Assembly: GCA_017512745.1 (NCBI GenBank)
Contig: JAFWEV010000098.1
Span: 62,001-126,000 of the forward strand
Source: Oscillospiraceae bacterium
Lineage (GTDB): Bacteria > Bacillota > Clostridia > Oscillospirales > Ruminococcaceae
Direction of reading: 5' to 3'
Length of the DNA: 64,000 bases
Shown here piece by piece: positions 39,497-63,103 of this stretch (its first letter is position 1; each line of letters opens with the position of its first letter). The position numbers were made by a program, and so were the translations under genes. The notes below the pieces were generated by a model. It had not been told where the DNA came from. It was given only the letters and a program-made list of their open reading frames with translations, and searched no databases.

Positions 39497-39759
39497 TCCT
39501 CCTTTGATGCGCGAAGCAGCGCGGTCTCGATTCTTGCGCGGATAGTGCAGTCCAGAGCACCGTGATCCTCGATGCTGATCACTGCGTCTGTTACGCCCAG
39601 ATCCTGCGCAATCTCCTCCGCGGATCTGCGGATGGAGTCGCCGAACTGGCGTTTGACCGGAGACTGGATATCTATCGTGAGACCCGAGCCCGGTGTGACG
39701 GTTACTATCAGATCGCTGGATTCCATAGTTCCTGCAATAGCGTTCCTGATAATGTTCAT
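39493..39759 (-). CDS. citD: Citrate lyase acyl carrier subunit CitD
   Basis: An 88-residue acyl carrier protein. S14 in A-G-T-M-E-S-S-D is the expected site of the phosphoribosyl-dephospho-CoA group, as in Klebsiella CitD. The core Q-F-G-D-x-I and D-H-G-A-L-D-C-T-I-R-A-R are family hallmarks. It overlaps citE by four bases. The group is made by CitG and attached by CitX, fused here at 60.4 kb. Confidence 0.93.
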   Translation of the reverse strand: MNIIRNAIAGTMESSDLIVTVTPGSGLTIDIQSPVKRQFGDSIRRSAEEIAQDLGVTDAVISIEDHGALDCTIRARIETALLRASKEE

Positions 39760-39779
39760 ATAGGTCCTCCTGCTGTTTG

Positions 39780-40745: not shown

Positions 40746-40818
40746 AAATGCCTCCTGCAAAAAGTCCTCTGAACTCCCCGGAGGATGTCCGGGAAGTTCT
40801 GAAAACAGTAATGTATGA

Positions 40819-42009: not shown

Positions 42010-42074
42010 TGCTGTTCTCCTTTATTTAATACATTCTTATTTATTCGACTGTCTGCTGACTGCTGAGATGACGT

Positions 42075-43352: not shown

Positions 43353-43405
43353 AGCTGATATATTCCTTTCATGACTGTGATGAGGGACCATATATCCGAT
43401 CCGCT

Positions 43406-43696: not shown

Positions 43697-44989
43697 ATGA
43701 ACAAGCTGAAAGACTACAAAATAGACATTTTCACTTTGCCGTACTACATCTTTGCATTGGTAGTAGTACTTGTGGGAACGTTCCTCGACAGAGTGCCCGG
43801 CCTCGGATTCTGCGGCGGCTTCGCTCTTTGTACGATCTTCGGAATCCTGCTCTGCTGGATCGGTGATCATCTCCCGATCGTACGCTCATACCTCGGCGGC
43901 GGCGCCTTCGTAGCGCTGTTCGGCGGCGCATTGATCGCTTACTTCAATGTATTCCCTGAGAAGACAGGAACTCTCGTAACGGATTTCGTTAAGAGCTATG
44001 ACTACCTCGGATTCTTCGTATCTGCTCTTATCTGCGGTTCCATCCTCGCAATGGACAGAGACCTTCTGATCCGCGCAGGTGTCCGTTACTTCATCCCGGT
44101 ATTTGCCGGAATCATCGGCGCTTTTCTCTTCACCGGAGTTGTCGCACAGATCGGCGGATTCGGCTGGAGAGAAGGAATCCTCTTCATTGCAACTCCGATC
44201 ATGGGCGGCGGTACCGCAGCCGGTGCTGTTCCGATGTCTGCAACATATGAAGCGGGTCTGAGTCAAAGCGCGGATTACTACTTGTCAATAATGATGCCGG
44301 CTGTTGTTCTCGGTAACGCGGCAGCGATCGTTTTCGCAGGACTCCTCAACAGCCTTGGTAAGAAGTTCCCGAAGTGGACAGGCAACGGCAAGATCATGCC
44401 CGCACACGGAAGCTTCCAGCCGAAGGAAATTGTTGAGCCTGAGATCGACCTTGTCGGAATGGGTCGCGGCTTCGTATTCGCAGGCTGCTTCTTCATTATC
44501 GGCCGTATCATCCAGAACTTCATTCCTTCGATCCACTACTATGCATGGACGATTATCGCGGCAGCAGTTGCAAACATCTTCAAGCTCGCTCCTCAGCAGA
44601 TGAAGGATGACTGCCGTCAGTGGTATAACTTCCTCACAAAATTCTGCGTACCGGCAGTTCTGTTCTCCATCGGTTATGTTTACACCAACATGTCCGTCAT
44701 CATCGAGAACTTCAACGGACTCTATCTCGCAATGGTTCTCGCAACACTGCTCGGATGCACAATCTTCACACTCATCGTATCCAAGCTCGTCGGCTTCTAT
44801 CCGATCGACGGTGCTATCACATCCGGACTCTGTATGGCAAACATGGGCGGTTCCGGCGACGTTGCAACACTCGGTGCTGCAGAACGTATGGAACTGATGC
44901 CGTTCGCACAGATCTCCTCACGTATCGGCGGTGCGATCATTATCATCCTCGCATCCATCCTCTGCCCGCTGATCGGTAAAGGACTCTAA
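43697..44989 (+). CDS. 2-hydroxycarboxylate transporter (CitS/CimH/MaeP family)
   Basis: A 430-residue membrane carrier of the 2HCT family, with about 11 helices. Both reentrant-loop motifs are present: G-G-G-T-A-A-G at 170-176 and M-G-G-S-G-D at 383-388. The conserved Arg of S-R-I-G-G (R409) matches the arginine that binds substrate carboxylates in CitS. Substrates in the family are citrate, malate or lactate, by Na+ or H+ symport or by exchange. With citDEF divergently next to it, citrate is the first guess. Codon use is biased towards preferred codons, suggesting strong expression. Confidence 0.9.
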   Translation: MNKLKDYKIDIFTLPYYIFALVVVLVGTFLDRVPGLGFCGGFALCTIFGILLCWIGDHLPIVRSYLGGGAFVALFGGALIAYFNVFPEKTGTLVTDFVKSYDYLGFFVSALICGSILAMDRDLLIRAGVRYFIPVFAGIIGAFLFTGVVAQIGGFGWREGILFIATPIMGGGTAAGAVPMSATYEAGLSQSADYYLSIMMPAVVLGNAAAIVFAGLLNSLGKKFPKWTGNGKIMPAHGSFQPKEIVEPEIDLVGMGRGFVFAGCFFIIGRIIQNFIPSIHYYAWTIIAAAVANIFKLAPQQMKDDCRQWYNFLTKFCVPAVLFSIGYVYTNMSVIIENFNGLYLAMVLATLLGCTIFTLIVSKLVGFYPIDGAITSGLCMANMGGSGDVATLGAAERMELMPFAQISSRIGGAIIIILASILCPLIGKGL

Positions 44990-45044
44990 TATAAGCGCTG
45001 TCCCATAAGATCGATCACGGATCTGTCTTTACAGGAATGATTAA

Positions 45045-45081
45045 GGCAGGGAATAAATATTGATTTATTCCCTGCCTGTTC
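45045..45081 (+). terminator. Intrinsic terminator after the CitS-type gene
   Basis: GGCAGGGAATAAAT (45045-45058), ATTG loop, ATTTATTCCCTGCC (45063-45076), then TGTTCT; weak T-run, so some read-through to the second larA is possible. Confidence 0.75.
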
Positions 45082-45125
45082 TATTAAAAAGGCAAATACC
45101 GTAAAAGCAAAAACTTCAGGAGGAT

Positions 45126-46406
45126 ATGCACCTCATGCATATAGAATTACCCTACGGGAAAACAAAACTGACGGCAGAACTGCCGGATGGGCTGGACGTA
45201 TCGATTCTGGATATGCCGGCGACAAAAGTGGACAAAACGGAGGAGGAGATGATCGACGCCGCGATGCGGAATCCGATCGGATCGCCTCTTCTTGAGGATA
45301 TGCTCAAACCCGATGACACGGTGGTCATCGTGGTGAACGATCAGACAAGACCCGGTCCGAACGTGCTCATCATGTCCGAACTGATGAAGCGTCTGGATAA
45401 GGTCGGAGTACCGGATGAGAATGTGACGATCATATTCGCGACGGGATCACACCGCTCTCCCACGGCTGAAGAAGCGCGCAAGATACTGGGAGACGAAGCG
45501 TACAACCGTTTCAAGACGGTGGATCACCACTGCATGGTGGACGAGGAGAACAAGTACATCGGTGACACCAAGGCGGGGATCCCGGTGTATATCAATAAAG
45601 TGGCTGCCGAATGCAGCTTCCTTATAACTACAGGCCTCATAACACAGCACCACTGCGCCGGTTACAGCGGCGGACGCAAATCGATAGTTCCGGGTATCGC
45701 CGGGTTTACTACGTTCCACATCCATCACTCATTCCCGGTATATCAGTACGAGCCGGCAATGGGATTCATGCACGGGAATCCGTTCCACAATCTGGCCGTG
45801 GACGCGGCGCGCACGGCGAATGTGCGATTCATAGTGAACGCCATACAGGACGCGCATAAGAAGGTCGTCGGTTTTGTGGCGGGAGATCTCGAGGCCGCCC
45901 ATGAGGAGGGAGTGAAGCTCTGTGAGAGTGTAACGATGCTCGAAGTGGATAAGCCCGCGGACATCCTCATCTCCAGTCCGGGAGGATTCCCCAGAGATAT
46001 AGACCTGTATCAGTCGCAGAAGGCGATCTCTGTCTCCGAACTCATCTGCAACCCAAACTGCGTCTTCGTGCTCGTTGCGGAGTGCAGCGACGGATTCGGA
46101 GGAGGCTCGTTCAGACAGATCATGGTCGATCACGCCGATCCGGACGAGATAATAGATCTGTACGCCAGAGAGGGATTCACCCCGGGCAGCAACAAGGCGT
46201 TCAACTATGCTCGGGCACTCAAGAAGGGCCGCGTGATCATCGTGTCCCCCCATCTCTCAAAGGAATCTGTTGAAGAGGCACACCTCGAGTGGGCAGGGAC
46301 TCTTCAGGAAGCCGTCGACAGTGCGCTGGAGGGCAGGAAAGACCCGGTAGTCGCAGTCATACCGTCCGCATCGGGACTGTGCGCGAGAGTAAGAAAGCAG
46401 GATTGA
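45126..46406 (+). CDS. larA: LarA-family nickel-pincer racemase (second copy)
   Basis: A 426-residue paralogue of the first LarA. CAGGAGG lies two bases before ATG 45126 and 11 before the in-frame ATG 45135, so the true start may be the latter. Cofactor residues are kept (T-G-S-H-R, H175/H176, G-G-R-K185-S, H-I-H-H), but the substrate motif is D-Q-T-R-P instead of D-H-T-R-P in copy 1, which suggests different substrate preference. It is placed between the CitS-type carrier and an AEC carrier, both candidates for importing its substrate. Confidence 0.86.
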   Translation: MHLMHIELPYGKTKLTAELPDGLDVSILDMPATKVDKTEEEMIDAAMRNPIGSPLLEDMLKPDDTVVIVVNDQTRPGPNVLIMSELMKRLDKVGVPDENVTIIFATGSHRSPTAEEARKILGDEAYNRFKTVDHHCMVDEENKYIGDTKAGIPVYINKVAAECSFLITTGLITQHHCAGYSGGRKSIVPGIAGFTTFHIHHSFPVYQYEPAMGFMHGNPFHNLAVDAARTANVRFIVNAIQDAHKKVVGFVAGDLEAAHEEGVKLCESVTMLEVDKPADILISSPGGFPRDIDLYQSQKAISVSELICNPNCVFVLVAECSDGFGGGSFRQIMVDHADPDEIIDLYAREGFTPGSNKAFNYARALKKGRVIIVSPHLSKESVEEAHLEWAGTLQEAVDSALEGRKDPVVAVIPSASGLCARVRKQD

Positions 46407-46436
46407 ATCAATAATTGTTGAAAGAGCAGCCGTATC

Positions 46437-47381
46437 ATGTTTGAAAACGCATTAAACAGTATTTTTACATTGCTCATGCTGATCTGTGTCGGGATCTTCC
46501 TGAAGACCAGGAAATGGTTCGGCATGCAGGGCGGGACCGCGTTCTCCAAGTTTGCATTGAATGTGGCGATCCCGGTAAATCTGATCACAACGATGGTCAA
46601 CTCGTTTGACGGGAAGGACGATCTGCTGAAGGTCATCTCGCAGATATTCATCCCGACCGCCATGATCGTGTTCAGCCTGATAGCGGCTCTGATCGTCGGA
46701 AGGATCTTCAGGGTAAAGGAAGGGCGCCGCGGAGCTTTCGCGGTGTGCTCGTCCTTCGCAAACGCCATCTTCATAGGGCTTCCCGTTGTCCAGGGAATAT
46801 TCGGAGACGCGGCAACACCATACGCGATGGTCTGCTATATCCCCAATATTCTTCTGTTCTGGACTATCGGCTACTACCTGATGATGAAGGACGGCGGAAA
46901 AGAAGGAGGGTTCAGCTTCAAGAATCTCAAAAAGCTGTTTTCCCCTCCACTGGTGGGATTCCTTATCGGTACGGCAATGGTATTGCTGAACCTGAAGATC
47001 CCGAAGTTCCTTCAGGGACCGCTTACGCAGCTGTCGCGGATGGCGACCCCGCTCGCGATGGTCTACATCGGGTGCGTAATAGGAAACACGGCGCTTAAGA
47101 AGGTGCTGGACAGCAAGAAGGATCTCATACTTGCGATTGCCATGCGGCTTGTTGTCGCGCCGATGTTCGTATGCCTTCTCTGCCATGTCTTCAACATCGA
47201 CCACGCCGTCGCTCAGATATTCTTCGTCTTCAGCGTGACGCCGACGATGACACAGTCGGCAATGATGGCGAACGAGTGCGGAGGGGACAGCGAATTCGTA
47301 TCCATGGAAGTCTGTGTATCCACGATCCTGGGACTTGTCTTCATCCCGTTTTATGTCTGGCTGATGCAGTATATCCTGTGA
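46437..47381 (+). CDS. AEC (auxin efflux carrier) family transporter, first copy
   Basis: A 314-residue membrane protein with about ten helices in two inverted halves, as in AEC carriers. The N-terminal half has the conserved K-F-A-L-N-V-A-I-P-V-N-L motif (about 33-44) and the C-terminal half the P-T-M-T-Q-S-A-M-M-A stretch. Bacterial members next to malic, malonate or lactate genes move dicarboxylates. No strong ribosome site precedes it, and it lies 30 bases after larA, so expression may depend on that gene. Confidence 0.84.
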   Translation: MFENALNSIFTLLMLICVGIFLKTRKWFGMQGGTAFSKFALNVAIPVNLITTMVNSFDGKDDLLKVISQIFIPTAMIVFSLIAALIVGRIFRVKEGRRGAFAVCSSFANAIFIGLPVVQGIFGDAATPYAMVCYIPNILLFWTIGYYLMMKDGGKEGGFSFKNLKKLFSPPLVGFLIGTAMVLLNLKIPKFLQGPLTQLSRMATPLAMVYIGCVIGNTALKKVLDSKKDLILAIAMRLVVAPMFVCLLCHVFNIDHAVAQIFFVFSVTPTMTQSAMMANECGGDSEFVSMEVCVSTILGLVFIPFYVWLMQYIL

Positions 47382-47445
47382 CAGATACAGCAGAATCCCG
47401 TAATTAACCCAAACAGCAAATTTCCATAAGCGAGGTAACAAGAGA

Positions 47446-48099
47446 ATGATCAGAATCGACACCACACTGATAAGCGACAAAGTCGTTGCCGAACTCAGAA
47501 GGCAGGTCCTGTACGGAACGCTGAAGCCCGGGCAGGAGATATATCAGGAGCATATCGCCGAGCAGCTCGGCGTATCCAGAATGCCTGTGAGAGAAGCTTT
47601 CCAGATACTGGCAAATGACGGATTCGTCACGATCAGACCGAACAAGACAACGGTGGTGAACGAGGTTTCCGAAAAATTCGTCAAGGATTTCTACACCACG
47701 AGGATCATCCTCGAATCCTCTGCGGTGCAGATGGCATGCGCAAATCATCCCGACTGCCGCAAGGCGTGGGAGGCCTACGAGAAGGGCGAAGAGATGATCG
47801 AACGCAAGGATATGATCGGATACAATATGCAGAACGCCCTGATCCACCGCTTCATATGGGACGCGGCCGACAATTTCAAACTGCGGCAGATCCTGGCCTC
47901 GATGTGGCACACGATGGACGCGGGATACAACCCGTATCAGGTCGCCCGCCAGTCCAACGACCAGCACAGGGAACTGATCCTGGCTATCGAGACGAACGAC
48001 CCGCAGCGCGGAGCCCATGTCATTAGGCAGCATATCCAGAACAGCATCGACGGGGTCCTGAGAGTCATGAAGGAACAGAGGCAGCAGAAAGAAGAATAA
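47446..48099 (+). CDS. GntR-family regulator, FCD subgroup, second copy
   Basis: A 217-residue regulator with H-I-A-E-Q-L-G-V-S-R-M-P-V-R-E-A-F as helix-turn-helix and an FCD helical domain. The recognition region is very similar to that of the first GntR protein (N-T-P versus R-M-P), so both may bind the TGGATACA elements. It directly precedes the promoter of the ttdA operon. Its ATG follows GCGAGGTAACAAGAGA, a weak ribosome site. Confidence 0.85.
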   Translation: MIRIDTTLISDKVVAELRRQVLYGTLKPGQEIYQEHIAEQLGVSRMPVREAFQILANDGFVTIRPNKTTVVNEVSEKFVKDFYTTRIILESSAVQMACANHPDCRKAWEAYEKGEEMIERKDMIGYNMQNALIHRFIWDAADNFKLRQILASMWHTMDAGYNPYQVARQSNDQHRELILAIETNDPQRGAHVIRQHIQNSIDGVLRVMKEQRQQKEE

Positions 48100-48153
48100 A
48101 CGGTCAAAAATAACAAAAACAGTTAATTGTACCAAAAACAATATAGTTACATG

Positions 48154-48182
48154 TTTACATAAAAGAAACGTGTTGCTATAAT
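48154..48182 (+). promoter_or_regulatory. Strong predicted promoter of the ttdA operon
   Basis: TTTACA at 48154-48159, 17-base spacer, perfect TATAAT at 48177-48182. It is the only obvious promoter before the run of fifteen rightward genes that ends at 63607. Confidence 0.75.
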
Positions 48183-48191
48183 GTTTATGAA

Positions 48192-48204
48192 ATCATGTAT
48201 CCAA
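48192..48204 (+). promoter_or_regulatory. TGGATACA element 5 (ttdA operon operator)
   Basis: ATCATGTATCCAA reads TTGGATACATGAT on the other strand, matching elements 3 and 4 over 12-13 bases. It starts about three bases after the predicted start site, so binding would block initiation. Confidence 0.7.
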
Positions 48205-48255
48205 TGTTTCAAATCCATTATCAATCAAAAAACTGCAAAAAGCAGGAGGTTTTCT

Positions 48256-49158
48256 ATGAACAAACAGGAAGCACGGGCAGTCATGACAGATGTCATGGAG
48301 AAGTTTCTTGGTCTTGCATGCAAGAGACTTCCGGATGATGTTTATGCAAAACTGAAGGAGTGTCGCGAAAAAGAGACTTCTGAGATGCAGAAGGTGATCT
48401 ACGACACCTATTTCGACAATCTTGAGAAGGCCATTGAGCTTAACCGCCCATGCTGCCAGGATACCGGACTGCTTCATTTCTATATCAACTGCGGTTCGGA
48501 ATTCCCCTATATGGGAATTGTCGAAGAGGCTCTCCGCGAAGCAACATCAAAGGCGACTTTCTCCTCTCCTCTCCGTCAGAACACGGTTAACTGGTTTGAG
48601 GAGCGCAATACCGGAGACAACACCGGCGAGCGCATGCCATGGCTGCACTGGGAGATCATCCCGGACAACAGCGATCTTGAGATCTGCACATACTTCGCAG
48701 GCGGCGGATGCTGCCTCCCCGGATGCGCGAAGGTCTTCAAGCCGTCCGACGGATATGCCGCAATAGTCAAATACGTTTTCGACGCAGTATCCGATCTCGG
48801 TATCAACGCATGTCCTCCGCTCATCGTAGGCGTAGGCCTCGGCCACAACATGGAAAACGCCGCAGTCCTTTCCAAGATGGCTTATCTCCGTCCTCTCGGA
48901 ACACACCATCATCATCCGAAGGGCGAGAAACTCGAGAAGGACCTTCTCGAAGGACTCAACAAGCTGGGTATCGGCGCACAGGGCCTCCCCGGCAATCAGG
49001 TCGCGATGGAAGTCCATGTGGAATCTTCCGCACGCCATACAGCTACGATCGCTGTCGGCGTCAATGTGGCATGCTATGCGCACCGCCGCGGATTCATCAC
49101 TTTCCATGATGACATGAGCTATGACTTCAGCAAATCCTATAAGGGGGTTGAACTGTAA
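48256..49158 (+). CDS. ttdA: L(+)-tartrate dehydratase alpha subunit TtdA
   Basis: A 300-residue TtdA from ATG 48256, behind AGCAGGAGG; the upstream frame to 48181 covers the operator. It follows E. coli TtdA closely: M-P/L-P-D-D-V near 25-29, N-R-P-C-C-Q-D-T-G at 63-71, A-G-G-G-C-C-L-P-G, N-A-C-P-P-L-I-V-G-V-G and C-Y-A-H-R-R-G. The Cys residues in C-Q-D-T-G, A-C-P-P and A-C-Y-A hold the [4Fe-4S] cluster. Together with TtdB it dehydrates tartrate to oxaloacetate. A class I fumarase role is a lesser alternative. Confidence 0.88.
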   Translation: MNKQEARAVMTDVMEKFLGLACKRLPDDVYAKLKECREKETSEMQKVIYDTYFDNLEKAIELNRPCCQDTGLLHFYINCGSEFPYMGIVEEALREATSKATFSSPLRQNTVNWFEERNTGDNTGERMPWLHWEIIPDNSDLEICTYFAGGGCCLPGCAKVFKPSDGYAAIVKYVFDAVSDLGINACPPLIVGVGLGHNMENAAVLSKMAYLRPLGTHHHHPKGEKLEKDLLEGLNKLGIGAQGLPGNQVAMEVHVESSARHTATIAVGVNVACYAHRRGFITFHDDMSYDFSKSYKGVEL

Positions 49159-49772
49159 TGAAAAAAGTATTGACTACACCGATCAAAGCAGAAGATCTTG
49201 AAGATATCCATATCGGGGATATAGTGTACCTCACGGGTACACTCGTAACCGGACGTGACGACGTTCACCGCCGCGTGGTACATGAGGGAATGACAAGTCC
49301 CTATGATTTCAACGGCGGAGCCATCTTCCACGCAGGTCCGATCGTACATGAGGAACCCGGCAACAATACTCTTATCTCAGTCGGACCGACCTCATCCATC
49401 CGCATGGAGCAGGATGAGGAAGACTTTATCCGCATGACAGGCGTCAAGATGCTCGTCGGAAAAGGCGGAATGGGTCCGAAGACAACAGCTGCTTGCGAGA
49501 AGTACAAAGCCATCCACTGCGTATTCGTCGGCGGATGTGCCGTCAGCGCAGCGGTCCATGTGGAGAAGATCGAGGACTGCTTCTGGAGAGAGCTCGGAAT
49601 GCCCGAGTGCGAATGGGTATTCAAGGTAAACGAGTTCGGTCCGCTGATCGTCTCAATCGATACACACGGCGGAAATCTGTTTGTAGAGAATAAAGCAAAG
49701 TATCAGGCACGCAAAGAAGAGTGCGAAGCCCCGATAATTGAGAGCGTCAAGGATTATCTTGTAATTGAATAA
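49158..49772 (+). CDS. ttdB: L(+)-tartrate dehydratase beta subunit TtdB
   Basis: A 204-residue TtdB that overlaps ttdA by one base (TAATG). It begins K-K-V-L-T-T-P-I-K-A-E-D-L, almost as E. coli TtdB, and keeps Y-L-T-G-T-L-V-T-G-R-D near 27-37, A-I-F-H-A-G-P-I-V near 56-64, G-K-G-G-M-G near 98-103 and F-G-P-L-I-V-S-I-D-T-H-G-G-N. Product oxaloacetate would join that from citrate lyase. Confidence 0.9.
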   Translation: MKKVLTTPIKAEDLEDIHIGDIVYLTGTLVTGRDDVHRRVVHEGMTSPYDFNGGAIFHAGPIVHEEPGNNTLISVGPTSSIRMEQDEEDFIRMTGVKMLVGKGGMGPKTTAACEKYKAIHCVFVGGCAVSAAVHVEKIEDCFWRELGMPECEWVFKVNEFGPLIVSIDTHGGNLFVENKAKYQARKEECEAPIIESVKDYLVIE

Positions 49773-49800
49773 TAAATCAGAAAGCATATAAATCCCCCAT

Positions 49801-49846
49801 CAGTCAAAGCCGGACATACAGGTTTATTTCTCCGGCTTTGGCTGAT
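49801..49846 (+). terminator. Long hairpin after ttdB, possible partial terminator
   Basis: TCAGTCAAAGCCGG (49801-49814) pairs with CCGGCTTTGGCTGA (49833-49846), one G-U pair, loop of 18. Only a short T-run (TTTA) follows, so it may protect the ttdAB mRNA end or reduce read-through rather than stop transcription. Confidence 0.55.
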
Positions 49847-49873
49847 TTACTCAGGAAGAGGTGAAGATCAATA

Positions 49874-50263
49874 ATGGCTATCCGAGAGACGGATGAAAAG
49901 AGACTGGAACAATCCAGAGAACTGATTGAAGAACTGAAGGAGCTAAGAGGCGGAAACGTGCTCAGTTTCCACAAACGTCTGGCAAACGACCCGCAGCTCA
50001 TTCACGCTTTCATCGAGCAGTACAGAAACTGCAACAAGGGCGAAAACGTGATACCGCGCAAATACCGTGAACTGATGATAATGCTTCTCGGATGTGCGAC
50101 GGGCGTTGAGACGACCATCAAGACGCACGCCAAGCTGGCGTGTGAAAACGGCGCTTCCCTCGAGGAAGTAGCCGAAGCGCTCCGCCTGGCATTTTTTATC
50201 TGCGGCGTCCAGGCGATCATCCCCGCAGCAACGATTTTCGACGAGATAGAAGAAAAGGAATAA
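49874..50263 (+). CDS. Carboxymuconolactone decarboxylase / AhpD-like family protein
   Basis: A 129-residue all-helical protein of the CMD family. The core R-E-L-M-I-M-L-L-G-C-A-T-G-V-E-T-T-I-K-T-H is followed by A-x2-G-A-S-x-E-E-V-x-E. There is one Cys in place of the C-x2-C pair of AhpD, so peroxidase activity is unlikely; a decarboxylase or lactone-linked role is possible. It lies eight bases before the PanE-like gene, pairing them in the operon. Confidence 0.78.
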   Translation: MAIRETDEKRLEQSRELIEELKELRGGNVLSFHKRLANDPQLIHAFIEQYRNCNKGENVIPRKYRELMIMLLGCATGVETTIKTHAKLACENGASLEEVAEALRLAFFICGVQAIIPAATIFDEIEEKE

Positions 50264-50270
50264 TAAGACT

Positions 50271-51203
50271 ATGGCAATCAAAACAGTAGCAATTGTGGGA
50301 GCCGGCGCTATCGGCAGCATGATCTCGGACAATCTGGAACTCGCATACGGAACGGATTTCTATCTCTTCTGCAAAAACGATTTTCTCGCAGCTCCGCTCA
50401 AAGCAGACGGACTGATGGTAAACGGCAGGAACTTTAAGCCGGTCGTTATCCAAAGCAAAGCGGACATGCCGGAAAAGCTCGACCTTGCAATCATTACAGT
50501 AAAGAATTTCCACCTTGCGTCCACGATCGAGGACCTCAAGACGGTTATCGACAGTCACACTGTCATCCTGCCGCTCCTTAACGGTGTGTATGCGTTTGAT
50601 ACTCTTACCAGGGAATTCCCGGACAACCACGTACTCTGCGGGATCATGGTAAAGACGGACGCCCATCCTGTGGGACCGGGACTTACAGCATATTCGACAG
50701 CCGGCGAGATACAGGTCGGCGAGGGAAGACCCGAGGATGCGGAACTCGCAAAAGAAGTATCGGCATTCGTAAACGTCAATAACCTCGAGAGCAACTACTA
50801 TCCGAACATCCGCCACATGCAGTGGCGCAAGTTCATGCTCAACGTCGGAGTGAATCAGATCACGGCCCTTACAAGGGCCGAATTCGGGATGATCCCGAAG
50901 ATCGAGGAGATCCCCGACGCCATGCGCCTCGTCATGCGCGAAGTCCTGGAAGTCGCGAATGCGGAGGGAATAGATCTGCACGAGAGCGACATAGACGAGC
51001 TCATCGAGTTCACACACAAATATCCCGAGGACAAGCAGACATCCATGCTTACGGATGTGCTTGAACAGCGTCCGACAGAGATAGACTTCTTTGCGGGCGA
51101 TGTGATCCGCTACGGAAAGAAGCACGGAATAGCAACTCCGTACAACGAGATACTGTATTACGTGATCCGCGGACTGCAGAAAGTATATCTCGCCAAGAGA
51201 TAA
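50271..51203 (+). CDS. Ketopantoate reductase (PanE/ApbA)-like 2-oxoacid reductase
   Basis: A 310-residue NADPH-type reductase. The Rossmann motif G-A-G-A-I-G-S is at 9-15, the catalytic Lys region is V-K-N-F-H (around 87-91, as T-V-K-N), and the C-terminal domain has the N-V-G-V-N-Q-I-T-A-L stretch with the conserved Asn. True pantothenate genes are absent nearby. In this operon it may reduce a branched or hydroxylated 2-oxoacid made by the dehydratases. Paralogues of PanE with other substrates are common. Confidence 0.82.
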   Translation: MAIKTVAIVGAGAIGSMISDNLELAYGTDFYLFCKNDFLAAPLKADGLMVNGRNFKPVVIQSKADMPEKLDLAIITVKNFHLASTIEDLKTVIDSHTVILPLLNGVYAFDTLTREFPDNHVLCGIMVKTDAHPVGPGLTAYSTAGEIQVGEGRPEDAELAKEVSAFVNVNNLESNYYPNIRHMQWRKFMLNVGVNQITALTRAEFGMIPKIEEIPDAMRLVMREVLEVANAEGIDLHESDIDELIEFTHKYPEDKQTSMLTDVLEQRPTEIDFFAGDVIRYGKKHGIATPYNEILYYVIRGLQKVYLAKR

Positions 51204-51228
51204 TCATCGGAAACGAGAGGAACGGCAA

Positions 51229-52308
51229 ATGATTCAGAATTCAAAAATACCGTACTGCCTCATTACAGACATACTGTCGGATGAACAGGCCGACCGCCTT
51301 GCGGACGTAGCGCCGAAGTATCCGGACCATGTGATCGTTGCAATGGATCACAACACTCCGTGCGGAACAGTCGCAGTGGCGGAGAAACAGAAGAAACTGA
51401 TCGAATACGCGCGCCGCTTTGGTACGGTCTTCTACTACGGGCAGGGGATCGGATATCATCTCGCGATGGAGGACCACCTGAAGGAAGGAGATATCCTCCT
51501 GAGCATCGGTGTTCATGCTCCGACTGTCGGAGCGGCGGGAGCCCTCGGACTCACCGTCCCGTTCGACAAACTTGTCGAAGTCATAGGCACCGGCGGTTTC
51601 GAGCTCCCAGAAACGGAAGAATATGTCATCCGCCTTGACGGAAAACTGTTTTACCATACCGCGGCAAAGGATATAGCTCTTACGATCCTTGAGAACCGCA
51701 GCGAATATGAGGGAAAACTGATCGTCCTCACAGGCGGTGAGGAACTTGACCGGGCGGATTGGCTCACACTGTGCAATATGCTTGCCCACTCCGGCGCATT
51801 CAGCGTTATCCGCCGCGATACCTCTGCGGAACCTGATATGGTCATAGACCTGTTCAAGATCGAGCGCAAGGCCCTTCTTCCGGGCGGCTATGACAAAATA
51901 GTCCCGATGACCGCGCTTGACGGTCTCAGGGTCAGCCAGGTGTTCTTCGGGGGATGCACGGGCGGAAGCATCGAGACCATGCGTCAGGTGGCAGAAGCGC
52001 TCGACGGCAAGCAGGTCAGCAGATATGTCCGCGTGCTTGTAGCGCCAGCTACTTCGAAGGTGTACGAACAGATGCTCGACGAAGGTCTTGTGGATCCCAT
52101 AATGCGCAGCGGAGCTCTCTTAATGAACCAGAGCTGCAGCGCCTGCTGGGCTCAGAGCCAGGGGCTCTGCGATGACAATGAGATATTTGTCACCACGGGT
52201 TCGATCAACTGTGCCAACTGGGTGGGACGCAACAATAACGGAGTCTACATCTCTTCACCCGAACTGGCGCTGAAGGCAGCTCTCACGGGCGTGCTCTACG
52301 AAAACTGA
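51229..52308 (+). CDS. Degenerate, shortened aconitase/LeuC-like [4Fe-4S] protein
   Basis: A 359-residue protein that aligns along the length of LeuC-type large subunits (about 420). It keeps D40-H41 and G-K-L-x4-A-K-D-I, H77 and H96, and the cluster cysteines C243 (G-G-C-T-G-G) and C303/C306 (S-C-S-A-C-W). But I-C-H-Q has become I-G-Y-H-L, T-D-S-H has become I-G-V-H, and N-R-N-F has become N-C-A-N-W, so several substrate and catalytic residues are gone. It lies 18 bases before the LeuD-LeuC fusion and may be a partner subunit, or a dehydratase with a new reaction. Confidence 0.72.
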   Translation: MIQNSKIPYCLITDILSDEQADRLADVAPKYPDHVIVAMDHNTPCGTVAVAEKQKKLIEYARRFGTVFYYGQGIGYHLAMEDHLKEGDILLSIGVHAPTVGAAGALGLTVPFDKLVEVIGTGGFELPETEEYVIRLDGKLFYHTAAKDIALTILENRSEYEGKLIVLTGGEELDRADWLTLCNMLAHSGAFSVIRRDTSAEPDMVIDLFKIERKALLPGGYDKIVPMTALDGLRVSQVFFGGCTGGSIETMRQVAEALDGKQVSRYVRVLVAPATSKVYEQMLDEGLVDPIMRSGALLMNQSCSACWAQSQGLCDDNEIFVTTGSINCANWVGRNNNGVYISSPELALKAALTGVLYEN

Positions 52309-52326
52309 GGATCGGGAGGAACTGTC

Positions 52327-54111
52327 ATGGAAAACGTTATCAAAGGCAGAATATGGCGCCTCGGGGACGATATCGATACCGATGTCATCATGATGACAAA
52401 ATATCTCGGACTCCCGACCTTGGAAGAAATGGTGCCCCATCTGTTTGAGCCTCTGAGGCCCGAACTGGCAGCGCAGCTGCGCGCAGGGGATATCATCGTC
52501 GGCGGCAAGAATTTCGGATGCGGATCTTCAAGAGAAGCGGCTGCCTCCGTGCTCAAAACGGTCGGCATCAGCTGCATCATAGCTAAGTCTTTCGCAAAGA
52601 TATTTTTCCGCAACGCGCTCAACAACGGACTGCTCCTCATTGAGTGCAAGGACCTCTTTGAGAACTGTGAAGAAGGAGATATCGCGGAAGTCCATGTAAA
52701 TGACTGCGTCATATGCAACGGGAAGAAGTACAGCATCCCTGCGATCGACGAGGGAATACGCCAGATACTAGAGGACGGCGGACTGGTAGAACATATGCGC
52801 CGTTCCGACAAGACGGACATAAAGGATGAGACAAAGGAAAAACCGTGGATCGGCAAACATCATCCCGGACGGACGATGGCTCAGCAGCTGATAATCAATA
52901 ATATAGGCTTCGACTGTAAACCCGGAGACATGGTGACAGTCAATGTCGATAAGGCCATCCTTCACGACATTTATGTGCCGTATATCTTCAATCAGTTCCG
53001 CGATATGGGATTCGACAGGGTGTACAACAAGAAGAAGTGTATCCTGATGATGGATCACATGTATCCGAACTGCAACTACGACGATCCGCGCTGCTACCGA
53101 TACGGGAACCGGTTTGAGGACGAGTACGGGATCATCGTCCACCGCAATGACGGCATATGCCATCAGGTGGTCAAAGACAAAAAATATGCGGAACCGGGCA
53201 GCATAGTGTTCGGAACCGATTCCCACACGACGACATACGGGGCCTTCGGGTCGTTCGCGACAGGCGTAGGCTACACTGAAATGGCATCGATCATCGGAAC
53301 GGGCAAACTGTGGATCCGTGTGCCCTCGTCCATTAAGGTTGTTGTTAACGGTAAGCTGCCGAAGGGCGTCTATGCAAAGGATGTCATCCTTCGCGTACTC
53401 GGTGACATAAAAGCAGACGGAGCGGTCTACAAGGCCCTCGAATTCACCGGCTCCACATTCGATGAGATGAGCATAAGCTCCCGCATGTCCATAGCGAACA
53501 TGTCCGTGGAGTGCGGAGCCAAGGTCGCTCTCTTCGAGCCGAACGACGCGATAGCGGAGATGTTCGGTATTGACCGCAAGGAACTCGACTGGCTGCGCGT
53601 GGGCGAGGACGAGTGCTACGAGCGAGTGCTCGAATACCGCGCCGAGGACCTGGTCCCCGTGATGGCCTGTCCGCCCAAAGTGGACAACGTCCATCCCGTA
53701 AGCGAAGTAGAAGGCACACCCGTGAATCAGGTATTTATCGGGTCCTGCACAAACGGAAGGATCGAGGATCTGGAGGCTGCGGCGGAGATACTCAAAGGCA
53801 AACATGTTGCTCCGTTCGTGAAATTCCTTGTAACACCGGCTTCAAGGGAAGTCTATGAAGAAGCTGAGAAAAAGGGATTGCTCAAGATATTCATCCGTGC
53901 CGGAGCGATGATCACTCATCCGTACTGCTCGCTGTGTCAGGGACGCAACGGCGGTGTTGTCAGCGCGGGAGAAGTCGTCATAGGCACTCATAACCGCAAT
54001 TTCCGCGGAAGAATGGGAAGCCCCGAAGCGCGCACATATCTCGCGAGTCCCGCTGTGGCTGCGGCGAGCGCGCTGTGCGGAAAGATCACCGATCCGCGGA
54101 CACTGGAATAG
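52327..54111 (+). CDS. Aconitase-family fusion with swivel (LeuD) domain first, then LeuC domain
   Basis: A 594-residue hydro-lyase. Residues 1-160 are a LeuD-type swivel domain (D-D-I-D-T-D-V at 14-20, N-F-G-C-G-S-S-R-E at 62-70, with Ala where most have His after S-R-E). Residues about 178-594 are a LeuC-type catalytic part: D-H at 243-244, G-I-C-H-Q at 276-280, T-D-S-H-T-T-T at 297-303, C474 in S-C-T-N-G-R, C534 and C537 in Y-C-S-L-C, and H-N-R-N-F at 555-559. All catalytic motifs are intact. The order is opposite to AcnA and like AcnB without its HEAT domain. Substrate unknown; an IPM-, methylcitrate- or dimethylmalate-type acid is possible. Confidence 0.82.
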   Translation: MENVIKGRIWRLGDDIDTDVIMMTKYLGLPTLEEMVPHLFEPLRPELAAQLRAGDIIVGGKNFGCGSSREAAASVLKTVGISCIIAKSFAKIFFRNALNNGLLLIECKDLFENCEEGDIAEVHVNDCVICNGKKYSIPAIDEGIRQILEDGGLVEHMRRSDKTDIKDETKEKPWIGKHHPGRTMAQQLIINNIGFDCKPGDMVTVNVDKAILHDIYVPYIFNQFRDMGFDRVYNKKKCILMMDHMYPNCNYDDPRCYRYGNRFEDEYGIIVHRNDGICHQVVKDKKYAEPGSIVFGTDSHTTTYGAFGSFATGVGYTEMASIIGTGKLWIRVPSSIKVVVNGKLPKGVYAKDVILRVLGDIKADGAVYKALEFTGSTFDEMSISSRMSIANMSVECGAKVALFEPNDAIAEMFGIDRKELDWLRVGEDECYERVLEYRAEDLVPVMACPPKVDNVHPVSEVEGTPVNQVFIGSCTNGRIEDLEAAAEILKGKHVAPFVKFLVTPASREVYEEAEKKGLLKIFIRAGAMITHPYCSLCQGRNGGVVSAGEVVIGTHNRNFRGRMGSPEARTYLASPAVAAASALCGKITDPRTLE

Positions 54112-54169
54112 TCAACATACCGGCAGGTGTGCCGGACAAACAATAAATCAAAACGTATAAGGAGGAACT

Positions 54170-55087
54170 ATGATCAAACGGGAAGTAATTGAGGAAGCCC
54201 TGTTTGAGGCGTGCAGAAGAGGTACTACCGTTATCTCCAAGGACGTTGAACAGGCTTTCGTAAGGGCGATCGAGAAAGAGACGAATCCCGCCGCGAAGAA
54301 GGGATTTGAGACGACACTGAGCAGCCTGCACAAATCAATAGAGCGTGACATAGTCATATGCTGTGATACAGGCTGGCCGCTGTATTTCTTCAAGATCGGC
54401 GATCAGTGCGAAATAGAAGGCGGCGTCTCCTCACTGCGCGAAGCAGCGGAACACGCTGTAGCGCGCGCCACACGCGAGGGACATCTCCGCGCGACGATGA
54501 AACATCCGATCAGCGGATATGATCCGGGCAACAACGTCGGACTGAATGCTCCGATCATTGAGATGAAGTTCGTTCCCGGCGACGGATTCGAGGCCACATT
54601 CTGCGCCAAGGGCGGCGGAAGCGAATGCTTCGGCGGAACACGCCAGAAGGTCATCGCATTTGCCGACGGACTCAAAGCTCATGAGAAGTGCATCCTCGAC
54701 TGGTACGCGGAAGCAGCGTGGCAGGGAGCTGTATGTCCTCCATGTGTCATCGGAATCGGCATAGGCGGCACGGCAAATGAGTCGGCCAACCTCGCAAAGC
54801 AGGCTGCAGCGCTCAGAGCCGTCGGTTCGCACAACCCGGATCCCACATTCAGAAAGATGGAAGAGGATCTGTATGACGCGATCAACGGTCTGAACATCGG
54901 TATCATGGGTGTCGGCGGCGATACTTCGGTATTCGCGGTCAATGTAGAGTATGCGTTCACACATCTCGACGGAATCATCCTCTCCATGGCATGCAACTGC
55001 ATGGTCGCCAGAAGAGGTACTATGAGAGTCAACGCGGACAATACAATGCTCCCGCTCGACAACGCCATGTGGTTCGGCGACAGATAA
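54170..55087 (+). CDS. Class I fumarase/tartrate dehydratase alpha-type subunit (second copy)
   Basis: A 305-residue protein of the TtdA/fumarase alpha family, behind AAGGAGGAAC, but clearly distinct from the ttdA of this window. The cluster cysteines appear kept in C-C-D-T-G, A-V-C-P-P and M-A-C-N-C; K-G-G-G-S-E-C-F-G-G and A-R-R-G-T-M-R-V are also present. Q-D-T-G has changed to C-D-T-G, which may alter the substrate site. It likely dehydrates another 2-hydroxy dicarboxylate or tricarboxylate. Confidence 0.82.
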   Translation: MIKREVIEEALFEACRRGTTVISKDVEQAFVRAIEKETNPAAKKGFETTLSSLHKSIERDIVICCDTGWPLYFFKIGDQCEIEGGVSSLREAAEHAVARATREGHLRATMKHPISGYDPGNNVGLNAPIIEMKFVPGDGFEATFCAKGGGSECFGGTRQKVIAFADGLKAHEKCILDWYAEAAWQGAVCPPCVIGIGIGGTANESANLAKQAAALRAVGSHNPDPTFRKMEEDLYDAINGLNIGIMGVGGDTSVFAVNVEYAFTHLDGIILSMACNCMVARRGTMRVNADNTMLPLDNAMWFGDR

Positions 55088-55099
55088 GGAGGAGATCTT

Positions 55100-55759
55100 A
55101 TGGAATACAGACTTAACATTCCGCTTAAGGATGAGGATGTAACAAAGTTAAAGATCGGTGATGTCGTATATCTCTCCGGTCCGATCTTCACATGCCGCTC
55201 AATGCTGCAGAAGAAAGTCCTGGACGAAGGTATGCCGATGACGATCGATACGAAGAACAAGTACAATGTCATGTTCCAGACAGGCGTTGTCGTCGGAAAG
55301 CTTCCGGACGGCGGCTGGGATATGCGTTCCATCATGCCGACATCGACGATCCGCTTTGAGAAATGGACCCCGCGCACGATCGAGCAGTGGGGCATCAAGA
55401 TGATCCTCGGCAAGACCAGCGTCGGAGAAGCCGGAACGGAAGCGCTCAAGAAGTTCAAATGCGTTCACATCTGTCCGCAGTCCGTCAGCCCGAACGACTG
55501 GCTGGATACGCTCCATCTCGACGGTGTTGACCGTATCGAGGAACTCGGACTCATCGAGGCGACATGGAAGTTCACCGCGAAGGACTTCGGACCTTTCGTA
55601 GTCGACGCCGACTGTGAAGGAAACCATCTCTTCGACCAGAATCTCGAGAATATCAAGAGCAATCTCAAGAAAGCATATGAGAAGCTCGGTATCGACGAAG
55701 ATATGAAGTTCACAAAACTGTACGGATTCCCGGATGATGACCGGGCAATGTATACCTGA
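55100..55759 (+). CDS. Class I fumarase/tartrate dehydratase beta-type subunit (second copy)
   Basis: A 219-residue TtdB-like partner of the preceding gene, 12 bases away. It has I-G-D-V-V-Y-L-S-G-P-I-F-T-C-R near 19-33, F-Q-T-G-V-V-V near 59-65 where TtdB has H-A-G-P-I-V, a T-S-T-I-R motif and K-D-F-G-P-F-V-V-D-A-D. The loss of the H-A-G-P and G-K-G-G-M-G forms (here G-K-T-S-V-G) separates it from true TtdB. It ends before a very GC-rich hairpin. Confidence 0.82.
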   Translation: MEYRLNIPLKDEDVTKLKIGDVVYLSGPIFTCRSMLQKKVLDEGMPMTIDTKNKYNVMFQTGVVVGKLPDGGWDMRSIMPTSTIRFEKWTPRTIEQWGIKMILGKTSVGEAGTEALKKFKCVHICPQSVSPNDWLDTLHLDGVDRIEELGLIEATWKFTAKDFGPFVVDADCEGNHLFDQNLENIKSNLKKAYEKLGIDEDMKFTKLYGFPDDDRAMYT

Positions 55760-55772
55760 TAAGTAAATAACA

Positions 55773-55817
55773 GGGCTGCGGCCGCATGCAAGGGATGACC
55801 CTGCGCGGCTGCGGCCC
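55773..55817 (+). promoter_or_regulatory. GC-rich intra-operon hairpin
   Basis: GGGCTGCGGCCGC (55773-55785) pairs over 13 positions, with two G-U pairs, with GCGGCTGCGGCCC (55805-55817). No T-run of note follows (GTATTTCTT). Likely an mRNA processing or stability element that sets different levels for the upstream fumarase pair and the downstream genes. Confidence 0.5.
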
Positions 55818-55848
55818 CGTATTTCTTAATGACGTTAAGGAGGCAGAT

Positions 55849-56769
55849 ATGCAGGACAGGAAATTTGCAGGGATATTCCCGTATCTTGTTTCCCCGGTCG
55901 ATGAGGACGGCACCGTGCGCGAAGAAGTATTGCGTGCGCTGGTTGACCATCTTATAGATTTCGGAGTGCACGGACTGGTGCCGCTCGGCAGCACGGGAGA
56001 ATTTTTCTATCTCGACTGGGAGCAGAGAAAGAGGATCGTCGAGATCGTGCTCGATGAGACCGCGGGGCGTGTACCGGTCATACCCGGTGTGGCGTCGGGA
56101 TCGGTAAACGACGCGGTGCATCAGGTGGAATATTACAACAGTCTGCACGTCGACGGCATACTGTCTGTTCTCAACGTCTATTTCCCGCTCGGACAGAACG
56201 GGATATACACTTACTTCAAAGCGGTGGCTGAGGCATCCGAGTCGCCGGTAGTACTCTACAACAATCCGAAATTCACGGGATTCGAGATAGAGAATGAGAC
56301 GCTGCTGAGACTGTCGGAGCTTCCGATGGTACAATATTATAAAGACGCTTCGGCCAACACCGGAAGACTGTTTGAACTCAGCAACAAACTGCATGGCAGG
56401 ATGGGAATATTCAGCGCGTCCGCACATGTGCCGGTATTCGTCATGATGATGGGCGGCAGTGGCTGGATGGCAGGACCCGCCTGCGTGATCCCGAAACAGA
56501 GCGTCGCTCTTTACGAGCTCTGCAGGGATAAAAAATGGGATGAGGCCATGGCGCTTCAGCGAAAACTCTGGGGCATCAACAGCATATTCCAGAAATACGG
56601 GCTTGCTGCCTGTATAAAAGGAGCCTTGACCCTGCAGGGCTTCGATGTCGGAGAACCGGTCGCTCCGACAAAACGGCTCACTCCGGAAGGGTGGGAAGAG
56701 ATCGGAAAAGTTCTGAAGGAAATGAAAGAAATAGAGGAGAGTCTGGAAAATGGAACTTGCAAAGAATAA
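55849..56769 (+). CDS. DapA-family aldolase/dehydratase (class I, Schiff base)
   Basis: A 306-residue TIM-barrel of the dihydrodipicolinate synthase/N-acetylneuraminate lyase family from ATG 55849 (AAGGAGG before it; the open frame back to 55786 covers a hairpin). Motifs: G-S-T-G-E-F at 47-52, Y137 in V-V-L-Y-N-N-P and Schiff-base K165 in Y-Y-K-D-A-S. The family includes lyases and dehydratases of 2-keto-3-deoxy sugar acids. In this operon a role in cleaving a keto acid made by the UxaA-like or enolase-type dehydratase is more likely than lysine synthesis. Confidence 0.83.
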   Translation: MQDRKFAGIFPYLVSPVDEDGTVREEVLRALVDHLIDFGVHGLVPLGSTGEFFYLDWEQRKRIVEIVLDETAGRVPVIPGVASGSVNDAVHQVEYYNSLHVDGILSVLNVYFPLGQNGIYTYFKAVAEASESPVVLYNNPKFTGFEIENETLLRLSELPMVQYYKDASANTGRLFELSNKLHGRMGIFSASAHVPVFVMMMGGSGWMAGPACVIPKQSVALYELCRDKKWDEAMALQRKLWGINSIFQKYGLAACIKGALTLQGFDVGEPVAPTKRLTPEGWEEIGKVLKEMKEIEESLENGTCKE

Positions 56770-57856
56770 AAAGCTGTGCTGCGGATGCGGAGCATGTGCC
56801 GAGATATGCCCGATGCAGGCTATAACCATGAAGCCTGATGAGGAGGGGTTCCTGTATCCTGTAATTGACGAGGATATCTGTATCGAATGCGGACTCTGCG
56901 AGAGCAGATGCCACGAACTTATGCCCGCGGGAAGCGATTTCGTCCGCGGAGAACCTGTTTTCTATATAGCGCACAACAACGATGAGGAAGTGATCATGAA
57001 GTCGGCGTCCGGAGGAGCTTTCTCCGCGCTGTCCGATGTGATCCTCGCAGAAGGCGGAGTTGTTTACGGTGCTGTTTTCGACAAGGATTTCAATATTGTG
57101 CATGGGCGCGCGGAGACAACAGAAGAGCGCAACCGCATGCGCAGTTCAAAATATGTTCAGAGCGTTGTGAGCAGCGAGATATATGCGCAGCTCAAAGAGG
57201 ACCTCGAGGCCGGACGCAAAGTGCTGTTTACCGGCACTCCGTGCCAGATAGCCGGCGTGCAGACGTTCCTTGACAGGGATTACGACAACCTCATACTCTG
57301 CGACGTCATATGCCATAGCGTGCCGAGCCCGCTGATGTGGCGTGAGTATCTGAAGATGCTCGAGGACGAGAACGGTGGAAAGATCACTTATGTCAACTTC
57401 CGCGACAAGACCGAAGGATGGCAGCGCGCCAGCACATTCAAGGGCTTCCGCTATAAGATTGATGACGGTGAGCTCAAGAAGGACGACCGTTTCTACAGGC
57501 TGTTCTTCGGATGGAAGACGATAGCGCGTCCCTCATGTTCTGCGTGCAAGTACGCTCAGGTGAACCGCCCGAGCGACATAACAATCGCGGATTACTGGGG
57601 CGTGGAGAGATTCGCGCCGGACTGGAAGGATTTCTACGGCGTGTCGTTCATCCTGACGACCTCTCAGAAAGGCGTTGATCTGCTCAATGCATGCAAGGAT
57701 ACGATGCGTTTCGAGCAGAGAGATCCATCCGAACAGATCTCGGAAAACCACAGGCTCAGAGGACCGATGGGCATCCTCGAGGAAGAGAGGGAAGCCTTCT
57801 GGAAGGACTATCAGGAGAAGGGATTCGTATACGCGCTCGGCACAATGCCGCTCTGA
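56750..57856 (+). CDS. Coenzyme F420 hydrogenase/dehydrogenase beta-subunit-like Fe-S flavoprotein
   Basis: A 368-residue protein with two N-terminal 4Fe-4S motifs (C-C-G-C-G-A-C-A-E-I-C-P at 10-21 and C-I-E-C-G-L-C-E-S-R-C) and the FrhB/FdhB N- and C-terminal domains (R-S-S-K-Y-V-Q-S, G-T-P-C-Q-I-A-G and C-S-A-C-K-Y-A). Relatives bind FAD and pass electrons, but most Clostridia lack F420, so ferredoxin is a likely partner. It overlaps the DapA-like gene by 20 bases. Some relatives act in polysaccharide pyruvylation loci, so the function here is uncertain. Confidence 0.78.
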   Translation: MELAKNKKLCCGCGACAEICPMQAITMKPDEEGFLYPVIDEDICIECGLCESRCHELMPAGSDFVRGEPVFYIAHNNDEEVIMKSASGGAFSALSDVILAEGGVVYGAVFDKDFNIVHGRAETTEERNRMRSSKYVQSVVSSEIYAQLKEDLEAGRKVLFTGTPCQIAGVQTFLDRDYDNLILCDVICHSVPSPLMWREYLKMLEDENGGKITYVNFRDKTEGWQRASTFKGFRYKIDDGELKKDDRFYRLFFGWKTIARPSCSACKYAQVNRPSDITIADYWGVERFAPDWKDFYGVSFILTTSQKGVDLLNACKDTMRFEQRDPSEQISENHRLRGPMGILEEEREAFWKDYQEKGFVYALGTMPL

Positions 57857-57872
57857 GAAATAAGGGGACGGT

Positions 57873-58811
57873 ATGGATAATTTTCTTATCGCATTCAACG
57901 CGGTACTGCCCTTTATAATCTACCTGGCACTTGGGTACTATATCCGCGCATCGGGTATCGCAACGATCGATCTTCTGCGGGGAATGAACCAGATCTCGTA
58001 TAAGATCCTCTTTCCGATCCTGCTGTTTTACAATATCTATACAAGTGAGGGACTGCTGTCAGGAAACAGGGCGTTCATGCTCTATGTCGTGGCAGTCGTC
58101 ACGGTTTTGTTTCTTGCGCTGTTCATCATTGTGCCGCGGGTCGAGAAAGACAATCCGAAACGCGGAACGCTCGTTCAGGGGATACTCAGGAGCAACATCA
58201 CGCTGTTCTCTCTTCCGCTTGCGGAGAGCATTCTCGGAGACGAAGGCGTCGCCGTCGCATCTCTGCTGATCGCGTTTGTGATCGCGTTTTACAATGTTTA
58301 TTCCGTGATAGCCTTCGAGACCTTCCGCGGCGGAAAAGCGTCGGTCGGAAAGGTCTTCATAGAAGTCCTCAAGAATCCTCTGCTTATCGGTGTCGCACTC
58401 GGTCTCGCGTTCAACCTGCTGCACATTCCGATACCCGGAAATCTGCTGACGCCAATCGGGAAGGTCGCAGCTATGACGTCTCCGCTTGCACTGATAATTC
58501 TCGGAGGAACTCTCGAGTTCAGCGCAGCAAAACAAAATCTGAAATATCTTGTCAGCGCCATCACGATCAAGATGGTGCTCCTGCCGATCATATGCGTTCC
58601 CATTGCACATGCGCTGGGATTCAGCCCTGCGGAGATATTCGGAGCCTACTGCCTGGTGGGTACTCCGATCGCAACCGGAACTTATGCTATGGCAGCAGGT
58701 TTGGGCGGTGACGCGGAACTCGCGGGACAGCTCGTCGTGTTCAGCACGGCGGTCTCGCTTTTCACCATCTTTCTCGGAGTCCTGGCCCTTAAGACGCTCG
58801 GATGGGTCTAG
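57873..58811 (+). CDS. AEC family transporter, second copy
   Basis: A 312-residue ten-helix carrier of the same family as the gene at 46437 but not a close copy. The N-terminal half has S-Y-K-I-L-F-P-I-L-L-F (the motif around the conserved Pro) and the C-terminal half G-T-P-I-A-T-G-T-Y-A-M-A. It probably imports one of the island's hydroxycarboxylates or exports the end product. It follows the Fe-S flavoprotein gene by 16 bases with GGGGACGG as ribosome site. Confidence 0.83.
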   Translation: MDNFLIAFNAVLPFIIYLALGYYIRASGIATIDLLRGMNQISYKILFPILLFYNIYTSEGLLSGNRAFMLYVVAVVTVLFLALFIIVPRVEKDNPKRGTLVQGILRSNITLFSLPLAESILGDEGVAVASLLIAFVIAFYNVYSVIAFETFRGGKASVGKVFIEVLKNPLLIGVALGLAFNLLHIPIPGNLLTPIGKVAAMTSPLALIILGGTLEFSAAKQNLKYLVSAITIKMVLLPIICVPIAHALGFSPAEIFGAYCLVGTPIATGTYAMAAGLGGDAELAGQLVVFSTAVSLFTIFLGVLALKTLGWV

Positions 58812-58865
58812 CAGGCCCTGAAGGCATTCACACATATACAAACGATCTTATACAGGGGGAAAAAC

Positions 58866-60374: not shown

Positions 60375-60424
60375 GATAATATAAGCGACAGGAAAACCAT
60401 TGTCCGATCGGAGACCGCAAACAG

Positions 60425-61801: not shown

Positions 61802-61825
61802 TTTTTTGAAGAAAGGAAATACGTT

Positions 61826-63088: not shown

Positions 63089-63103
63089 TAAAGGAGAATG
63101 ACG

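Follow-up and report, generated by a model that had tools for sequence, protein, structure and literature searches.

We consider it probable that the gene at 51229-52308 of the window (the whole stretch of 64,000 nucleotides that was analysed, from a gut-type Clostridia bacterium) encodes an aconitase-superfamily pseudoenzyme, pseudo-LeuC, most likely a degenerate b-type LeuC, which serves the adjacent a-type LeuD-LeuC isomerase as a subunit without catalysis of its own, in a structural or allosteric role. It is termed a pseudoenzyme because its catalytic residues are lost while the predicted fold is kept and the gene, as judged from the Gemmiger pair only (see below), is maintained by selection. 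The two genes are:

51229-52308, plus strand: pseudo-LeuC, aconitase domains 1-3, catalytic residues lost, C243, C303 and C306 kept
52327-54111, plus strand: intact a-type LeuD-LeuC fusion, domain order 4-linker-1-2-3, with its own GGAGG; the proposed catalytic partner

The pseudo-LeuC reading frame runs uninterrupted from ATG to stop (359 aa) behind its own ribosome site (AGAGGAACGGCAA-ATG), and the frame is closed by a stop codon ~22 codons 5' of the ATG, so that no hidden N-terminus is present. The intact frame, the upstream stop and the same changes in relatives rule out a sequencing error or a hidden start. The product matched the Pfam Aconitase model PF00330 (E=1.3e-33, 117 bits versus a cut-off of 28.7), which makes it a member of the aconitase superfamily, and all NCBIfam LeuC/HacA models matched it far under their curated scores (TIGR02086, 187 versus a cut-off of 410; PRK00402, 174 versus 385). 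The deficit of about 60 residues given in an earlier sequence-only reading was borne out by comparison with typical LeuC proteins (~407-430 aa), and stems from ~25 residues missing at the N-terminus and from a loop missing near residue 200. An AF2 model built from eight aligned sequences reached pLDDT 83 and pTM 0.84, with the cluster loops (304-312 and 328-334) as its least confident parts. Its best Foldseek/VIA matches were the M. jannaschii homoaconitase and IPMI large subunits, and the predicted fold corresponded to that of the LeuC/homoaconitase large subunit (TM 0.89, VIA Z 42.6). No separate LeuD, the small subunit that carries the Ser642 base, adjoins pseudo-LeuC in the window, where the nearest LeuD is part of the neighbouring fusion.

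Relatives were sought in ~2000 genome look-ups and one productive scan of ~85,000 species genomes, and only four close ones were found in this combined search:

Gemmiger sp. An120 (L002/L027/L094)
a Gemmiger MAG (L029/L095)
genome G1108, another genus of the same family (L136)
Clostridium sp. N3C (L096)

The window, Gemmiger and N3C proteins share ~26-31% mutual identity. The order and phylum scans returned mostly intact LeuC matches; G249, g31 and other high scorers proved to be canonical LeuC rather than kin of the pseudo type. A search with the single protein gave no matches in genome contigs or viral contigs, and repeating the viral search with the alignment as query gave none either; tblastn against plasmids listed distant LeuC-like matches alone, with <30% identity among the top rows.

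Residues were compared with those of 118 further LeuC-like proteins in one alignment, made up of 8 b-type, 13 a-type and 97 others (9 of the latter also b-type), whose positions presumably correspond to the aconitase numbers assigned to them here by motif. Among these 118 proteins, D165, H167, N258, E262, C358, C421, C424, R447 and R452 were invariant, and H147 was His in 117. Alignment to the neighbouring LeuC genes confirmed that the window protein combines lost catalytic motifs with retained cysteines C243, C303 and C306, which sit in the right motifs. As the sequence-only reading had stated, ICHQ and TDSH are altered: the former is IGYH (H147 = Tyr76) and the latter IGVH (D165 = Gly94, S166 = Val95), with the His of TDSH retained as H96. 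E262 is replaced by His187 and R447 is lost, whereas D100, H101, H167 and N258 are retained. The Arg-to-Ser change reported for CTNGR, located after CTGG, is weak as evidence, since aconitase itself carries Ser there. The region of the reported change of NRNF to NCANW contains an indel that leaves the fate of N446 and R452 uncertain. In mitochondrial aconitase, Asp165, His167 and His147 form a hydrogen-bond network at Fe4 (PMC8184944); in the window protein, this network (His147, Asp165, His167) and the substrate-binding Arg447 read Tyr, Gly, His and lost, respectively.

The two most telling substitutions are shared by the whole group, with H147 replaced by Tyr in all five pseudo proteins versus 1 of the 118 others, and D165 replaced by Gly in all five versus none of the 118. 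H101 and H167 are kept throughout. No relative restores the missing motifs, so the orthologue check called for by the earlier reading came out in favour of genuine, conserved changes, and the association with one LeuC clade is kept over four genera. The cluster ligands behave differently: the three Cys are kept in the window and N3C proteins, but three of the five (both Gemmiger and G1108) have lost all of them (Y/F, D and V instead), together with N258. The AF2 model of the Cys-free Gemmiger protein still showed the aconitase large-subunit fold (TM 0.89 to the LeuC/homoaconitase large subunit). In another partly degenerate LeuC (L125/L151, 3770-5017, G1311:C1), Gly-Ile stands at Asp100-His101 and Tyr at His147, but Cys, Asp165, Arg447 and Arg452 are intact; this protein has its own LeuD and is ~50% identical to the second LeuC of the window. 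A LeuC subgroup (L068, L070, L077, L090 and L127) carries GADGH (S166 to G), a CSAGR-like motif for CTNGR and TIRN/TVRN for NRN, with its Cys intact.

These patterns bear on three functions that would depend on an Fe-S cluster or on a pocket. An active Fe-S hydro-lyase of altered chemistry, with a three-Cys cluster, Tyr76 or His77 in the place of His147 and LeuD supplied in trans by the fusion, would agree with the three Cys, D100, H101, H167 and N258 of the window protein, with the Cys of N3C, and with the precedent of AcnX, which has altered residues and dehydratase-only chemistry (PMC8184944). Such an enzyme is nevertheless unlikely, given that the Gemmiger and G1108 proteins occupy the same slot without the three Cys and N258, that H147 and D165 are replaced by Tyr and Gly alone rather than by a new polar pair, and that none of the five loci has an own LeuD for the pseudo protein. 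A stand-alone sensor or regulator, responding to cluster, iron or substrate and acting on transcription or RNA in the manner of IRP1 rather than on the neighbouring enzyme, appears more doubtful still. Aconitase-fold proteins can moonlight, IRP1 being the example, and the substrate pocket is partly retained (D100, H101 and H167), but the Cys are not conserved over the pseudo clade, which argues against cluster sensing in general; a GntR regulator is already present at the locus, and the tie to one LeuC clade would be left unexplained. Lastly, a protein that loads the cluster of the neighbouring aconitase or serves as its scaffold would fit the three Cys of the window and N3C members and the adjoining Fe-S enzymes, yet the Gemmiger and G1108 versions have the same neighbour and lack the three Cys, making this extremely improbable. 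The sequence-only reading had put forward a cluster sensor, a hydro-lyase with new chemistry and a protein that loads its neighbour, and the loss of every cluster Cys in three of five members at the same operon position weakens the sensor and the new hydro-lyase and defeats the loading proposal. Because of this loss, the function shared by the clade is not expected to be cluster sensing or new Fe-S chemistry.

The possibility that the gene is simply a decaying b-type gene without function was also considered. Its branches are long (~2 changes per site), catalytic residues and LeuD are lost, and the further losses differ between members. Such decay is, however, very improbable in view of the intact reading frames in all five loci, the same H147 and D165 substitutions in all five, the position kept over at least four genera, and the pairwise dN/dS. 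The latter was obtained from the two Gemmiger species only, as the genus of the window gene is represented here by one genome; it was 0.11 for their pseudo genes, against 0.05 for the fusions next to them. These ratios indicate that the Gemmiger pseudo gene is under purifying selection, less tightly than the enzyme; between Gemmiger and G1108, the pseudo gene is 59% and the fusion 86% identical.

The partner proposed for the non-catalytic subunit is the fusion at 52327-54111, which begins 18 bp after the pseudo-LeuC stop and is fully intact, in agreement with the earlier statement that the gene directly precedes an intact aconitase fusion. In all five loci, spread over four genera, pseudo-LeuC lies directly 5' of an intact LeuD/LeuC, either a LeuD-LeuC fusion (window, Gemmiger and G1108) or LeuD followed by LeuC (N3C). 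The LeuC parts of these five neighbours fall into one clade with other Clostridia LeuC (support 100/100), here called a-type. Small-subunit-first fusions of the order 4-linker-1-2-3, known from fungal IPMI and AcnB, were observed in bacteria at window 52327-54111, L027 11049-12860, L136 6097-7893 and L142 7268-10913.

In other Clostridia the arrangement is leuD - leuC(b) - leuD - leuC(a), at times with a fused LeuD-LeuC, where b-type LeuC forms a second clade (support 100/99) with the checked catalytic residues intact except for Thr at N446. As the earlier tandem loci had been found via the pseudo profile, the pairing was retested by searching 52 genomes, drawn evenly from one other family, with a query of a-type. 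An a-type gene was present in 6 of the 52, a biased estimate of frequency since the family was picked because one member had the tandem; a b-type LeuC with its own LeuD lay directly 5' in all six, and this pairing test is unaffected by the choice of family except for the one seed genome. Over all a-type loci seen, a LeuC-like gene lies directly 5' in 21 of 21 (16 b-type and 5 pseudo), and in the five pseudo loci the dead protein occupies the b slot while the LeuD of b-type is absent, with no LeuD before the pseudo gene in any of them. In one genome, the order leuA - leuD - leuC(b) - leuD - leuC(a) - leuB, accompanied by ilv genes, marks the tandem as part of leucine biosynthesis. In G1331 (L139, 7526-13778), leuA and leuB of a leucine operon flank two complete LeuCD sets.

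Phylogenetic analysis placed the pseudo clade next to b-type LeuC (support 91/80), although a grouping with a-type was not rejected (p-AU 0.41) and the pseudo branches are very long, these genes evolving fast. As a check on long-branch attraction, pseudo lineages were left out of the tree: the group persists without any one of its three lineages, but a lineage placed alone has no close kin, so the clade rests also on the shared residues and position. CxxCW is a motif of b-type LeuC that recurs in the pseudo proteins of the window and N3C, and no other LeuC checked has it. Pseudo-LeuC thus likely descends from b-type LeuC, as far as sequence comparison can tell.

A non-catalytic subunit of the a-type enzyme is the simplest function that all five members could share, because the Cys are dispensable whereas the fold, the Tyr and Gly substitutions and the a-type neighbour are not. 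Pseudo-LeuC would take the place held elsewhere by an intact b subunit, and would change the assembly, stability or control of the a-type enzyme. Regulation of the neighbour was the best supported suggestion of the earlier reading, and the physical complex is something we infer: pseudo-LeuC and the fusion presumably touch, and the pseudo-subunit may thereby alter the activity, stability or specificity of its partner. The Cys-retaining members (window and N3C) could still bind a cluster, which would be a property of these members and not of the clade. Several observations weigh against a dead subunit. The two genes may be neighbours only through a common pathway; a subunit of purely structural role would have no need of the three Cys that the window and N3C proteins retain; the fast evolution and long branches, with the support values given above, affect the inferred b-type descent; and N3C has a further intact LeuC/LeuD pair. 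In N3C (L096, 7275-15387), pseudo-LeuC and two LeuCD pairs were seen with a methyltransferase, an acyl-carrier-like protein and a class II tRNA-synthetase-like ligase, a possible biosynthetic cluster extending an amino acid chain.

The genes around the pair in the window suggest its substrate:

37212-39759, minus strand: citrate lyase subunits CitF, CitE-like and CitD-like, divergent from the operon
43697-44989, plus strand: 2-hydroxycarboxylate transporter (2HCT), also present in the Gemmiger and G1108 loci
48181-49772, plus strand: TtdA/TtdB-type L(+)-tartrate dehydratase, alpha and beta subunits
49874-50263, plus strand: carboxymuconolactone-decarboxylase (CMD)-family protein, with a 45-46% identical homologue near the Gemmiger locus
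50271-51203, plus strand: ketopantoate-reductase (KPR)-family oxidoreductase, 25 bp upstream of pseudo-LeuC and probably on its transcript
54170-55759, plus strand: second, divergent TtdA/TtdB-type Fe-S hydratase pair
60425-61801, plus strand: CitX-CitG fusion (citrate lyase prosthetic group)
61826-63607, plus strand: second LeuC (61826-63088) and LeuD (63098-63607), separate, of another LeuC clade

The operon, from ~43697 to 63607, is assumed from strand and spacing to be one transcript. In order, it comprises 2HCT, a LarA-type racemase, an AEC transporter, the GntR regulator and TtdAB, followed by the CMD-family protein, the KPR-family reductase, pseudo-LeuC, the LeuD-LeuC fusion and the second TtdAB, and then by a DapA-family aldolase, an FrhB-like protein, an AEC transporter, a UxaA/galactarate-dehydratase-like protein, CitX-CitG, LeuC and LeuD. 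The citrate lyase operon (37212-43391, minus strand) diverges from this hydroxy-acid operon (43697-63607, plus strand), and between them they include two LarA-type racemases as well as two TtdAB pairs and two LeuCD sets. In Gemmiger and G1108, the operon encodes 2HCT, PFOR, phosphotransacylase, butyrate kinase, an IDH/LeuB-family dehydrogenase and an OadA-like protein. No LeuA_dimer match was found in the genome of the window (90% complete), which disfavours leucine biosynthesis as the role of the pair there. Based on this absence and the operon content, the pair most likely serves the fermentation of hydroxy-di/tricarboxylates in this bacterium, and the operon points to a 2-hydroxycarboxylate (citrate-, malate- or tartrate-like) as the probable substrate.

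More tentatively, a class of IPMI-type enzymes in Clostridia may consist of obligate heteromers of two large subunits (a and b), in catabolic versions of which the b subunit would have become a dead allosteric subunit through the loss of its LeuD and catalytic residues, followed in the Gemmiger lineage by loss of the Fe-S cluster; we regard this as possible rather than probable. If a and b do form one enzyme, the textbook IPMI architecture (LeuC and LeuD) would be incomplete for many Clostridia, and intact b, Cys-retaining pseudo and Cys-free pseudo proteins would constitute a natural record of a metalloenzyme subunit that loses its cluster and keeps a role. Neither a dead LeuC-type subunit nor a pairing of LeuC large subunits was found described in the literature searched.

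Compared with known systems, pseudo-LeuC is predicted to share the domain 1-2-3 fold of the LeuC/HacA large subunits (4kp1 and 4kp2; Foldseek 1.7e-30, VIA Z 42.6) at ~25-31% identity, and the window protein retains their cluster Cys; unlike them, it is changed at H147, D165, S166, E262 and R447, is ~60 aa shorter and has no own LeuD. AcnX is likewise a superfamily member that has lost canonical residues, including a change at the H147 position, but it is catalytic: Cys occupies that position and Glu the D165 position, the cluster is of the [2Fe-2S] kind, and the chemistry is dehydratase-only (PMC8184944). Pseudo-LeuC has Tyr and Gly at these two positions, scores 25.5 bits with the AcnX Pfam profile (under the 31.5 cut-off) and resembles AcnX less than LeuC in fold (Foldseek TM 0.66 versus 0.89). 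An inactive paralogue that is kept alongside an active partner and activates it has a precedent in trypanosomatids, where the dead paralogue of deoxyhypusine synthase and the AdoMetDC prozyme form active heteromers with their partners (PMC3663545, PMC5201418); these pairs are eukaryotic and of unrelated folds, and their heteromers are demonstrated, whereas that of pseudo-LeuC is a proposed one. The b-type LeuC of the Clostridia tandem differs in keeping its own LeuD and the checked catalytic residues (except N446, Thr), but it shares with pseudo-LeuC the slot directly 5' of the a-type gene and, with the window and N3C members, CxxCW.
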